DNA from: Actinomycetota bacterium
GTDB taxonomy: Bacteria; Actinomycetota; Actinomycetes; Propionibacteriales; Propionibacteriaceae
Assembly (NCBI GenBank): GCA_020161795.1
Contig: JAIUOR010000051.1
Location: forward strand, 1 to 64,000
Direction of reading: 5' to 3'
DNA: 64,000 nt
Below the pieces are notes generated by a model. That model ran no database searches. It was not told the DNA's origin and saw nothing but the letters and a program-made list of their open reading frames with translations. Shown piece by piece: positions 40,011 to 44,017 of the stretch (the first letter of the stretch is position 1; the number at the start of each line of letters is the position of its first letter). The position numbers were made by a program, and so were the translations under genes.

Positions 40011-40619
40011 TCAGGTCAGCGCGAGCGTGGTCAGGCAGGTGGCTGCCTCGTCGCCGCTCGTCGTGATCGGCTGGGTGGCGGTGCGGCCCTGGTACTCGAC
40101 GGTCAGGGTCGCGTCGAGATCGCGGGGCAGCCACAGCCCGAGGAAGCCGTTGTCGTAGGTGCGCAGCTGCTCGTCCACCAGCGTCTCGCCCGCGGCATCG
40201 ACGACGGTCACCTGGACGTCCGCGTTCTGCAGTTCTCCCACGCACGTGGTGAGGCTGTGGAAATGGCAGTCGTGGGTCCGGGTCAGGTACGGCGCGAAGG
40301 AAACGTAGAACTTGTCGGCCGGCAGGGGCAGACTCGCCTCGCGTTCCTGGTCGTCGCTGAGCAGCAGTTGACCGGGACGGACCGATGCGATCAGATTCGC
40401 CGGACGTTCGGCGAGTGGCGTCCGGTCGAGCCGTTCGATGATCTGGCTGGCGTCCAGCCCGGTCAGGCCGTGGGCGGCGAGCATGGATTCCGCCCCGGTC
40501 GAGGCGGGGCTCGCCGGGGTGGTGGCGCTCTGGCTCGGGGCCGGAGCGCTGGCGCATCCGGGCAGGGCGAGCCCGGCGGCCAGGGTGAGTGCGGCGACAA
40601 CCGCAACGTGCATCTTCAT
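40011..40619 (-). CDS. CueP-family copper-binding lipoprotein
   Basis: Protein of 202 aa. Residues 1-22 are a lipoprotein signal (LALPGC). After a Ser/Thr/Pro/Ala linker comes the CueP domain: FYVSFAPYLTRTHDCHFHSL with the C-x-H metal cluster, TTCVGELQNADVQVTV, and the late Cys in EAATCLTT. CueP holds copper in the periplasm of Salmonella; actinobacterial members sit on the outer face of the membrane. A DUF6153 gene lies upstream on the same strand. Confidence 0.85.
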   Translation of the reverse strand: MKMHVAVVAALTLAAGLALPGCASAPAPSQSATTPASPASTGAESMLAAHGLTGLDASQIIERLDRTPLAERPANLIASVRPGQLLLSDDQEREASLPLPADKFYVSFAPYLTRTHDCHFHSLTTCVGELQNADVQVTVVDAAGETLVDEQLRTYDNGFLGLWLPRDLDATLTVEYQGRTATQPITTSGDEAATCLTTLALT

Positions 40620-41287: not shown

Positions 41288-41671
41288 ATGCAGCTCACGG
41301 TCACGGTCGTCACCCCGGCTGAGCGTCCCGCGGACGGGACGCCCGTCGTCATCGACGTGCGGGACACCTCGCGCATGGACGTCGCCGCCACCAGCGTGAA
41401 TCGCGTCGTGACCAGCGTCGGAGCCCTGCCGCCCGAACCCGACGCCGGGCCCGAGGCGGCGCCGGAGCGGGACGACGTCCCGGAAGCCCTCACGATCGCC
41501 GAACTGGAGGTGCCGGACGACCTGGTCGACGCCGGCGCGCTCACGGTCTTCGTCCACGTCGAGGCCGCGGGCAGCGAGCAGATCACAGCGGGCGATCTGC
41601 TGACCGTCCAGTCGTTCCCCGTGGTCACCGGCGCCGACGAACTCGTGGTCGAGGTCATCCGGATCGGCTGA
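41288..41671 (+). CDS. Small beta-rich protein, weakly like the YbaY/YscW fold, next to the ATP-grasp gene
   Basis: Protein of 127 aa with no signal peptide. The pattern PVVIDVRDTSRMDVAATSVN and TIAELEVPDDLVDAGALTVF resembles the YbaY/YscW-like beta-sandwich (VxLxDxSxxDAxAxxI). The resemblance is only by pattern. It is convergent with and overlaps the ATP-grasp gene by 17 nt. Possible accessory of the protease-ligase pair, or unrelated. Confidence 0.65.
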   Translation: MQLTVTVVTPAERPADGTPVVIDVRDTSRMDVAATSVNRVVTSVGALPPEPDAGPEAAPERDDVPEALTIAELEVPDDLVDAGALTVFVHVEAAGSEQITAGDLLTVQSFPVVTGADELVVEVIRIG

Positions 41672-42659
41672 GCGCGGAGGACGGTACGACCGGATTGGCC
41701 AGCCAGCCCGCGACGGCGTCGGTGATGGGGTAGCCGGCGCCGTACTCGCAGAACAGGAACTCCCCCGCGGGGTTCACCTCCAGGAAGACGTACTCGCCGT
41801 CGGGCGTGAGCCGGAAGTCGGCACCGCCGTAGACCAGCCCGAAGTGCGCCATCAGCGCCCGTAGCCCGGAGGCGACCTCGTCGGGCAGCCGGACGGCCGA
41901 GGTGCCGGCGGTGCGCATCCGCAGCCGGAAGTCGATGTCGGGCGAATCGCGTCCGTCGATCGCCATGGCGAACAGGTCGTCGCCGACCACGGTCACCCGG
42001 ATGTCGGCCACCCCCGGCACGTACTCCTGGAAGATCACCGGAGCCAGGTGCAGCCGGTCGAGCTGGGCCAGGTCGGCCACGGTCAGCCGCCGGGTCTCCC
42101 GCCACACCTGGTAGGTGGCGGCGAAGATCTTGTAGACGACGTTGTCGATGCCCCACTGCTCGGCGAAGGCGCGCGCCTCTGCGCCGTCCGAGGTCATCAG
42201 GGTACGGGGCGTCCGCAACCCCAGCGTGGGCGCAACGGCCAGCTGCAGTGCCTTGTGGGAAGCCAGTTGGTCGGCCACCAACGGGTTCAGCCACGGACAG
42301 CCGAGCAGGGCGTACATCCCGTGGATCGCCTCGTGCCATTCCCCGTAGCAGAACCCCCGCGCGTCCGGGTCGGCGACGGCGGCATCCACCGCCACCAGTT
42401 GCGGGCGCCGCCACCACACCGAGCGGGCGTCGGTGAGATCGACGATGCCCGCCTCCTGATGCCGCACCCGCACCACGGGACGGTCGCCGGTGTGGTCGAT
42501 GGTCAGGGTCTCCCGCCCCGGGAGGTCGCTGAGATCGAGGAGGAAGCTCGGCACGCCCCACTCGGTGAGGCGGCCGATCACCGTGGTGGCGTGCAGATCT
42601 CCCGGATGGGAGAGGACCACGACCGGCCCCCTCCCATCCGAGCCGGCGGGCTGGGTCAC
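41655..42659 (-). CDS. ATP-grasp ligase, graspetide-maturase-like
   Basis: Protein of 334 aa. An N-terminal pre-ATP-grasp domain (about 1-125) has VVVLSHPGDLHATTVIGRL and VWWRRPQL, the latter typical of MvdD-like maturases. The ATP-grasp domain (about 130-325) has the nucleotide Lys in NVVYKIFA, the QEYVPGVADIRV segment and metal residues in FLEVNPAGE. It starts at GTG 42659, overlapping the astacin stop by 4 nt (GTGA), so the two are strictly coupled. Such enzymes join Glu/Asp side chains to Ser/Thr/Lys. The likely substrate is the ET-x-KE repeat tail of the protease, which is inference. Confidence 0.85.
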   Translation of the reverse strand: MTQPAGSDGRGPVVVLSHPGDLHATTVIGRLTEWGVPSFLLDLSDLPGRETLTIDHTGDRPVVRVRHQEAGIVDLTDARSVWWRRPQLVAVDAAVADPDARGFCYGEWHEAIHGMYALLGCPWLNPLVADQLASHKALQLAVAPTLGLRTPRTLMTSDGAEARAFAEQWGIDNVVYKIFAATYQVWRETRRLTVADLAQLDRLHLAPVIFQEYVPGVADIRVTVVGDDLFAMAIDGRDSPDIDFRLRMRTAGTSAVRLPDEVASGLRALMAHFGLVYGGADFRLTPDGEYVFLEVNPAGEFLFCEYGAGYPITDAVAGWLANPVVPSSALSRSG

Positions 42660-44017
42660 TGCAGACCCTGCCCGTATGCCTGGACGACGGCGTCGTGCTG
42701 GGCGGCCAGCACGGCCACCACCTCCTCCAGCGCGGCCACCCGGGCTTCGAGGCTGGTGGCCTCCTGGTCGCAGCCGCAGGGGCTGGCGGTGGGCAGTTGC
42801 TGCGCGACCGCCTGCTGCTCGGCGGCGTACGGCGTCGCCATCGCGAACGGCAGCCCGGCGTCCCCGAACCCCGGGTTGACGACCACGCCGCCGCCGGGAA
42901 GCGTGACGTTCTCCTGGATCGTCTCGACGAGCTCCTTGCGGGTCTCGCCGACCAGTTCCTTGGCCGTCTCCGGCGCCAGCTCCTTGAGGGTCTCCGGAAC
43001 CAGTTCCTTCTTGGTCTCGGGCACCAATTCCTTCTTCGTCTCCGGCGACTGCTCCTTGAAGGTCTCCGGCGAGAGCTCCTTGAGCGTCTCGATCTTCTCC
43101 TTCGTGTGCTCCTTGAGGGTCTCCAGCTCCTTGCTCGTCTCGACCTTCTCCTTGAGGGTCTCGATGAAGGTCTCCACGGGCAGCTTGACGATCGGGCACA
43201 TCGAGTTGGCCGCCGCGATGTCGCCGGCGCTCAACCCCGTCCGCTGGCCGATCGACGCGGTGGGATCGGTCGGGACGATCGTGTCCATCCCGTTCTTGGT
43301 GAAGGCATCCCGCGGGTAGTGCATGATCGAGCCGTAGTCGTACCCGCCGACGTCGTCGCCGTCGGTGATGTGCTGGTTGAAGTTGTGCTCGGTTCCGCTG
43401 AGGATGTTGGCCCACGCGATGGTGACGAAGCTGTCGCGATCCTCCCGCGACTGCTCGTGCCACAGCCCCACGGCGTGCCCGATCTCGTGGATCGTGTTCC
43501 CGGTCGTGCAGCCGGCCGCCAGGTTGACGAACTGCTGCCCGCCGCGCTTGCCCACGCTGGACGAGCACCCGCTACCGGGCCGGAAGGTCACCCAGTCGGG
43601 GTAGCTGGCCTCATTGGCCGCCGTGCGGAGCACGAAGGTGAACCGGGTGTTGGCCTCCCAGTGCTTGATGGCGTCGGTGACCCGCGCCTGGTTCGTCAGC
43701 GCGGAGTCGATCGTGTAGGGCACGACGCAGTTCGGCCACCGGAACTGGTTCCCGGTGATCAGCACGGCGGCCGCCACGGCGCCCGTCAGCTCCGCGCGCA
43801 GGACTTCGGTCTCGGCCTCGACCTCCTCCACGGTGCCGAGCACGATGTCGCCTTCGAACATGGCGAGGCCGTCCAGGGCGACGTACTGGACGGCCTTACC
43901 GCGGAAGTTGGCTCCCGAGATGAGAGCGGTATGGACGGTCTTGTTCCTCACGGGGGCAGAATGCTCACTGCCCTCCGGCTGCGTGGACCCAGCATTACGG
44001 GTCGGTTTGTCTGCCAT
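42656..44017 (-). CDS. Astacin-family (M12A) metalloprotease with a tandem octapeptide repeat tail
   Basis: Protein of 453 aa. N-terminal pro-region with FEGD (54-57), the astacin aspartate-switch latency motif. Catalytic domain about 90-275: HEIGHAVGLWHEQSREDRD from His177 (zinc ligands H177, H181, H187; general base E178) and the Met-turn SIMHYP (230-235). Residues 310-365 are seven octads of the type ETKKELVP, preceded by looser ETxKE units from 282. A Gly-rich segment, a CGC and a short coiled coil (about 419-446) end the protein. There is no signal peptide, odd for an astacin. The ATG at 44017 follows GGAG. The ATP-grasp gene is coupled to its stop. Confidence 0.9.
   Translation of the reverse strand: MADKPTRNAGSTQPEGSEHSAPVRNKTVHTALISGANFRGKAVQYVALDGLAMFEGDIVLGTVEEVEAETEVLRAELTGAVAAAVLITGNQFRWPNCVVPYTIDSALTNQARVTDAIKHWEANTRFTFVLRTAANEASYPDWVTFRPGSGCSSSVGKRGGQQFVNLAAGCTTGNTIHEIGHAVGLWHEQSREDRDSFVTIAWANILSGTEHNFNQHITDGDDVGGYDYGSIMHYPRDAFTKNGMDTIVPTDPTASIGQRTGLSAGDIAAANSMCPIVKLPVETFIETLKEKVETSKELETLKEHTKEKIETLKELSPETFKEQSPETKKELVPETKKELVPETLKELAPETAKELVGETRKELVETIQENVTLPGGGVVVNPGFGDAGLPFAMATPYAAEQQAVAQQLPTASPCGCDQEATSLEARVAALEEVVAVLAAQHDAVVQAYGQGLQ
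42923..43090 (-). repeat. Seven tandem 24-bp units in the astacin gene
   Basis: Each 24-nt unit encodes ET-x-KE-x-x-x: ETLKELSP, ETFKEQSP, ETKKELVP (twice), ETLKELAP, ETAKELVG, ETRKELVE. The Thr, Lys and two Glu positions never change while the third residue and the last three vary, which suggests selection on the invariant side chains. Confidence 0.85.

Follow-up and report, generated by a model that had tools for sequence, protein, structure and literature searches.

Graspetide synthetases link Glu or Asp to Thr, Ser or Lys, and MdnC, MdnB, PsnB and CdnC act on small precursors with an N-terminal leader. Here we compare such systems with a two-gene locus, an astacin protease with a repeat-bearing tail followed by an ATP-grasp ligase, found in a window of 64,000 nucleotides (nt; the whole stretch of DNA analysed) from an actinomycete of the Propionibacteriaceae (assembly GCA_020161795.1, contig JAIUOR010000051.1). 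We consider, with a probability of about 0.77, that the tail is a graspetide precursor, that the ligase ties its repeats into ester or amide rings on the full-size enzyme, and that a conserved C-terminal motif serves as a 'follower'.

According to Makarova et al. 2022 (PMC8939145), graspetide leaders have a common Phhx(1,2)h motif, and branch 7 loci combine unrelated peptidases and often a YscW homolog with no detected precursor. The present loci are similar in that a graspetide-type ATP-grasp ligase lies beside unrelated peptidase families, often with a YscW homolog and with no small precursor, but the branch 7 peptidases are thought to cut other proteins, whereas we propose the enzyme's own tail as the precursor. 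We infer that the ligase branch described here is branch 7, equating the two by description and not on the published tree, and the best reading is that the tail is the precursor missing from that branch. Similarly, graspetide group 32 (Carter et al. 2026, PMC13097080) has diverse neighbouring proteases, likened to those of our branch by description only; in that article these and other neighbouring proteases are read as possible maturation or resistance factors. In corallotide (group 15, PMC13097080) a Lys-Asp isopeptide closes each of five KxxxD repeats. Corallotide resembles the proposed tail arrays in that repeated motifs of a long precursor are closed by a TIGR04187 synthetase, but its precursor, of about 22 kDa, is not an enzyme tail, and its cluster includes a hydroxylase. 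The fuscimiditide synthetase ThfB accepts a leader moved C-terminal to the core (PMC13003496), can cyclise proteins and can act on several cores per chain (PMC13003496, PMC12291112); there the C-terminal placement was engineered, whereas in the present loci it would be natural. We found no description of a protease tail as a graspetide precursor in a literature search that left subscription papers and supplements outside its scope; no paper joining graspetides with astacins was found there, and ATP-grasp together with astacin led only to a nematode gene paper.

The two genes and the parts of the protease on which the argument turns are as follows.

42656..44017, minus strand: astacin (M12A) metalloprotease with repeat tail, 453 amino acids (aa), assigned by PF01400 and the NCBIfam LegP-type astacin model.
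41655..42659, minus strand: ATP-grasp ligase of the graspetide-synthetase group, 334 aa, GTG start, assigned by sequence and predicted fold.
43199..43741, minus strand: astacin catalytic domain, residues 93-273, with the zinc helix from His177 and the Met-turn at 230-234.
42911..43162, minus strand: repeat array, residues 286-369, candidate multi-core substrate, from the octads and low values of the predicted local distance difference test (pLDDT).
42923-43090, minus strand: exact octads, residues 310-365, seven units of eight residues.
42827..42853, minus strand: motif LPFAMATPY, residues 389-397, candidate C-terminal leader ('follower'), from conservation of Phe391 and the motif list across catalytic heads.
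42662..42766, minus strand: C-terminal helix, residues 418-452, part of the conserved tail end, from the AlphaFold2 (AF2) model and profile-profile matches across heads.

The coordinates and strand of both genes in an earlier note on this DNA are correct, and the 4-nt overlap reported there is confirmed: the sequence GTGA contains both the ligase GTG (42657-42659) and the protease stop (42656-42658). Because the genes overlap, there is no room between them for a separate small precursor, and this candidate was discarded. The sole ligase-linked precursor candidate found is the 453-aa protease itself, not a short stand-alone protein; the GRASP_targ model (TIGR04186) gave no match in the genome of the window, and none in control genomes either.

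By sequence and predicted fold, the ligase is a graspetide synthetase. PF21068, the MvdD pre-ATP-grasp domain, matched it at 29.4 bits against a cut-off of 27, and TIGR04187 matched at 221.6 bits, below that model's 350-bit cut-off. The maturase models TIGR04187, TIGR04184, TIGR04185 and TIGR04192 all aligned over nearly the full length, each under its own cut-off, and the ligase is therefore a divergent member of this group. Scored with a profile of 30 such ligases, MdnB reached 236, MdnC 235, AMdnB 222, PruB 196, CdnC 194 and PsnB 123 bits, against 34-51 bits for RimK-type ligases. The predicted structure (mean pLDDT 92.3) had MdnC bound to its precursor as its best fold match; ranks 1-32 were chains of MdnC, AMdnB, PruB, CdnC, MdnB and PsnB, and RimK appeared from rank 33. 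Both fold and nearly full-length sequence are thus like those of MdnC, MdnB, PsnB, CdnC and PruB, all with solved structures, the last known here by its structure title alone. A RimK or primary-metabolism ligase was rejected on the profile scores and the fold ranking, and the suggestion of the earlier note that the enzyme falls with the MvdC/MvdD/PsnB-type synthetases is borne out. Nine residues (K136, K177, E188, E212, D219, R221, D281, E294 and N296) are invariant among the 30 aligned ligases; we take them to be catalytic, with presumed roles in binding ATP, metal or substrate. D219-x-R221 presumably corresponds to the core-binding DxR motif of PsnB, a phrase not found in the literature listed.

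The tail of the window protease is repetitive. Residues 310-365 form exactly seven octads in which four of the eight columns (E, T, K, E) are invariant; among 5000 shuffles of the 99-residue tail (277-375), four gave one invariant column and none gave more. Ten ET-x-K units follow residue 276, and the three outside the octads are ET-x-KE units at irregular spacing between 286 and 303. The invariance of Thr, Lys and Glu proposed earlier therefore stands for the window, but that of Thr extends only through its own subfamily; relatives carry Lys, Thr or both. After the protease domain, Phe391 is the sole residue invariant among 25 aligned astacins. The AF2 model of the whole protease (mean pLDDT 67.8; predicted template modelling score 0.54) gives most of the protease and the C-terminal helix at fair to good confidence, with pLDDT below 50 at residues 323-353 and 355-418; residues 281-315, part of the array, are predicted to be helical.

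The head of this protein is an astacin. PF01400 matched residues 93-273 at 165.5 bits, the zinc motif HEIGHxxGLWH starts at His177, the Met-turn is S230-IMHY, and FEGD lies at 54-57 in the pro-region, where we take it to be the astacin latency motif. H177, E178, H181, H187, S230 and M232-Y234 are invariant in the alignment of 25 astacins. The family match and the alignment agree with the zinc site, Met-turn and pro-motif described previously; HExxHxxGxxH, the Met-turn and the astacin domain that define M12A are all present, with relatives in the PDB to E 7.7e-36. The protease domain also scores above the family cut-off of the LegP-type astacin model NF045530 (324 bits against 300), but that model spans residues 26-275 only, leaving the tail outside it, and the family name is uninformative on function in this actinomycete.

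The association of ligase and tail extends far beyond the window. Relatives were collected from GTDB genomes with a profile of three ligases, which yielded 209, of which the best 80 were kept, near-copies included; a contig scan with the single window ligase as query gave no relatives. Among 394 genomes of the class, ligases close to that of the window occur in only two others (220-231 bits, the next at 154), and both adjoin an upstream tail-bearing astacin and then a YscW-like gene. In a midpoint-rooted tree of 117 sequences, built without L124 (a masked stretch reads N; L numbers denote loci), L010 (too short) and four duplicate rows, the window ligase falls in a branch of 75, with support 91/87. 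A tail, consisting of an array of acid-plus-nucleophile repeats and the motif PF-h-h-x-T-P-H, with a C-terminal helix after it in nearly all cases, is encoded directly upstream of 72 of these 75. This count comprises 70 loci with the tail seen upstream, some of them clipped by a contig end (L066, L112), together with L048, where the contig ends upstream of the ligase and the first 161 bases encode a tail end, and L113 (L113:3873-5924), where a trypsin-like head, array, motif and ligase share one 683-aa frame. This frame may be a real fusion or, given that the assembly is a metagenome and the ligase is truncated at its start, an assembly fault. A first, loose tail pattern had given false matches in L097, one frame of L112 and L130, which were dropped, L112 being kept in its correct frame. 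Tail-end profiles matched 68 of the 75 branch rows (the window lay outside the searched set, and most rows also built the profiles). They had no match in any of the 42 ligase loci that fall outside this branch. In 29 of those 42 the longest upstream frame is shorter than 200 aa, and in our judgement several upstream frames there resemble ordinary precursors. Of 69 gene pairs, 50 had a possible in-frame ligase start within the stretch allowed, which opened at -40 nt relative to the upstream stop; the start nearest to -4 lay between -40 and +120 nt in all 50, at exactly -4 in 12. By record title, tail-bearing loci occur in eight phyla: Actinomycetota, Acidobacteriota, Bacteroidota, Chloroflexota, Krumholzibacteriota, Planctomycetota, Pseudomonadota and Verrucomicrobiota.

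The catalytic heads are diverse. The 71 tail proteins (window included, duplicate L086 left out) have heads of astacin (34), trypsin-like (21), M43 (nine), tyrosinase (two), matrixin (one) and unassigned (four) type, so that 65 belong to peptidase families. Eighteen heads were tested with Pfam, the remaining labels being given by similarity to those. Besides the window, these were 17 upstream proteins: Trypsin_2 was found in L061, L065, L084, L085, L088 and L107, Peptidase_M43 in L064, L078, L081, L095, L116 and L129, matrixin in L099 and tyrosinase in L072, with no match at E 0.001 for L058, L069 and L101. The two tyrosinase-headed tail proteins with a downstream ligase (L072:3428-4900 and L076:3403-4848) show that the tail-ligase module is not limited to proteases. 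Thus the earlier expectation that homologous ligases adjoin repeat-bearing proteases holds for the branch, where most heads are proteases, but the pairing is not confined to astacins; tails of this kind also follow trypsin-like, M43, matrixin and tyrosinase heads.

This tail is recognisable across heads. The motif, or a variant read as such, is present in all 71 proteins, least typically in L019, L092 and L093; in L019, L092 and L101 its position was assigned manually. In profile comparisons of tail ends between groups with different heads, 21 of 38 reached a probability of at least 90%, 18 of them over at least 35 columns. The probabilities were 99.4% for trypsin with M43, 99.9% for M43 with tyrosinase, 99.1% for trypsin with tyrosinase and 96.5-97.5% for astacin groups with trypsin (96.5% for the window-type astacin). 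Head types cluster on the ligase tree, with 8 changes against 32.3 in shuffles, as do array types, with 9 against 41.9, near-copies inflating both figures. Together with the ligase family, the 72 of 75 linkage supports the proposal of the earlier note that the tail is an embedded substrate of the adjoining ligase, whose action would leave cross-links in it. More generally, it is likely that this synthetase branch, present in eight phyla, acts on enzyme tails through a natural C-terminal leader as a protein-decoration system in which heads of four peptidase families and of tyrosinase are exchanged while tail and ligase stay paired.

These observations bear on the account of Makarova et al., in which the peptidase cuts other cellular proteins into peptides that the ATP-grasp enzyme modifies, the tail being incidental. 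That account was published for branch 7/8 loci with peptidases and no recognised precursor (PMC8939145), but here the tail is constant and the peptidase variable, tyrosinase heads occur, and astacins without such an adjoining ligase also lack such a tail in seven of seven cases; we regard it as very unlikely for the present loci. Among these seven controls, L015 and L016 have other C-terminal repeats, with no ligase match in their genomes; L137 and L138 have C-terminal repeats read as propeller-like; L133 and L135 end shortly after the protease domain; and L134 has another C-terminal stretch. The ligase profile and five tail-end profiles gave no match in the seven control loci (3.2-8.8 kb), and both matched in L049. 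The control set is small because surveys at E 1e-20 found astacins in only 2 of 396 and 4 of 394 actinobacterial genomes, that of the window counted in both; L133-L135 are three of 18 plasmid matches. The window astacin is the only one in its 3.47 Mb genome (search at E 0.001).

The repeats themselves vary in a manner consistent with ring-forming chemistry. The 71 arrays comprise ETxKE (eight, all astacin), KExxKD (23), KKxxDD (six, of which L057, L067 and L092 were assigned by hand), KxxDD (ten), Lys-free Thr/Asp (18), PKD/PKE (three) and other (three) types, and the best of the periods tried gave a periodicity z of at least 4 in 46. Eighteen arrays carry Thr and Asp, with Lys below 3% and Thr/Ser at 12-18%, 11 carry Lys and Asp/Glu, with Thr/Ser below 6% and Lys at 11-19%, and Asp/Glu make up at least 11% of all arrays, figures that are rough because some measured segments, mainly of Streptomyces-type astacins, still contain protease sequence. 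Judged from sequence, the exchange of Lys and Thr between arrays would be the swap expected for ester versus amide chemistry. It is highly improbable that the tail serves simply as a charged stalk or coiled coil while the ligase acts otherwise, for example by RimK-like addition of amino acids. The predicted helix at residues 281-315 and the distant relationship of RimK ligases to the window ligase are compatible with that reading, but the Lys-free Thr/Asp and KKxxDD arrays look to us unlike a helical stalk, and RimK scores lie far under those of graspetide synthetases.

In the mechanism that we favour, the astacin would be enzyme and precursor in one chain, made up of catalytic domain, Glu/Thr/Lys array, PFAMATPY and C-terminal helix. 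The ligase would be recruited by the motif and helix at the end of the protein, a leader after the core being a natural follower. It would then use ATP to activate Glu/Asp side chains in the repeats and couple them to neighbouring Lys or Thr, forming amides or esters respectively, with loss of one water per link. The array, disordered before, would thereby become a series of small rings that would stay attached to the enzyme. As to purpose, the weakest step of the explanation, we prefer a spacer, stiff and resistant to proteases, that would separate a self-endangering enzyme head from the C-terminal helix. A spacer is preferred over an inhibitor matched to the active site because the heads include a non-protease.

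Two other fates of a modified tail can be weighed against this. The precursor might be self-releasing, the protease head cutting the modified tail in its own chain or in trans and so freeing graspetides. Most heads are indeed proteases (65/71), and known graspetides are released peptides; however, the tyrosinase heads of L072 and L076 are not expected to cut, and no conserved cleavage site or transporter was noticed, though no systematic search was made. We consider self-release unlikely. Slightly less likely still is a tethered inhibitor, in which the ringed tail folds back and blocks an active site, either that of its own protease or that of a neighbouring one, until needed. The prevalence of protease heads and the FEGD-bearing pro-region of the window protease fit such a role, and the description of graspetides characterised to 2022 as protease inhibitors (PMC8939145) agrees with both alternatives. 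However, KxxDD arrays are found on trypsin, M43, M10 and tyrosinase heads, and the repeats look unmatched to an active site because one type sits on different kinds of enzyme.

Several observations weigh against a ringed tail with a C-terminal follower as set out above. A C-terminal leader is an unusual order for graspetides; the PF-h-h-x-T-P-H element is like PFFARFL or Phhx(1,2)h in kind only, and it lies C-terminal to the core. In L069:2266-3480 and L101:1466-4945 repeats stand on both sides of a PFVMATPHH motif, which is thus inside the array and not near its end. Seventeen of the 38 cross-head comparisons of tail ends fell below 90%, chiefly those of the M43 group with PK[DE] repeats and those of actinobacterial trypsins with M43 and tyrosinase, and three of the 21 that passed span merely 14-23 columns; a single origin of every tail end is therefore unproven. 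Support for the ligase branch falls short of the program's 95/80 mark, and the rooting is by midpoint. Three members, L036, L097 and L115, are without a tail, L036 and L097 on long branches. Finally, profile comparison gave no match between the tail motif and the small precursor-like protein encoded ahead of a sister ligase in L121, and identity of the two motifs was rejected.

The proteins upstream of sister ligases in L121 (L121:4474-4929) and L114 (L114:342-1088) have PFAIAIP and PFVMARP, respectively, before a Thr/Asp-rich end, and are perhaps ordinary precursors with an N-terminal leader.

If the tail is a precursor, the published puzzle of precursor-less, peptidase-linked ligases would be explained, the substrate being the enzyme's own tail, and graspetide chemistry would reach from peptides to proteins. 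It would provide a natural case of the C-terminal leader engineered in PMC13003496, and a portable tag of natural origin, made up of the repeat unit and the PFxLxTPH element, with cognate cross-linking ligases. A tail-ligase pair behind unrelated enzymes suggests a little-noticed route to the chemical remodelling of whole proteins.

A third gene converges on the ligase gene in the window, as in its nearest relatives.

41288..41674, plus strand: YscW/YbaY-like domain protein, assigned by a profile from relatives; probable partner of the astacin head.

Pfam gave no YscW match for this protein, but it was matched at E 1.9e-14 by a profile of relatives that excluded the window, and the relative in L020 matched PF09619 at 24.2 bits (cut-off 22.6). 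A YscW-like gene is present in 33 of 34 astacin loci and, among 48 other loci, only in L048, where the upstream gene is cut by the contig end. Because it tracks the astacin and also adjoins astacins without such a ligase, we rejected it as a ligase partner; it is probably a partner of the astacin head, of which it may be an inhibitor or chaperone. A role of the locus in anti-phage defence was also discarded, PADLOC having matched none of six proteins. A CueP-type copper-binding protein (PF21172, 186.8 bits) is encoded nearby on the minus strand (40011-40619), with no sign that it belongs to the protease-ligase locus. On the Pararhizobium plasmid of L133, genes for a YbaY-like protein, the tail-less astacin, a hypothetical protein and a phospholipase D-like protein lie in a row.

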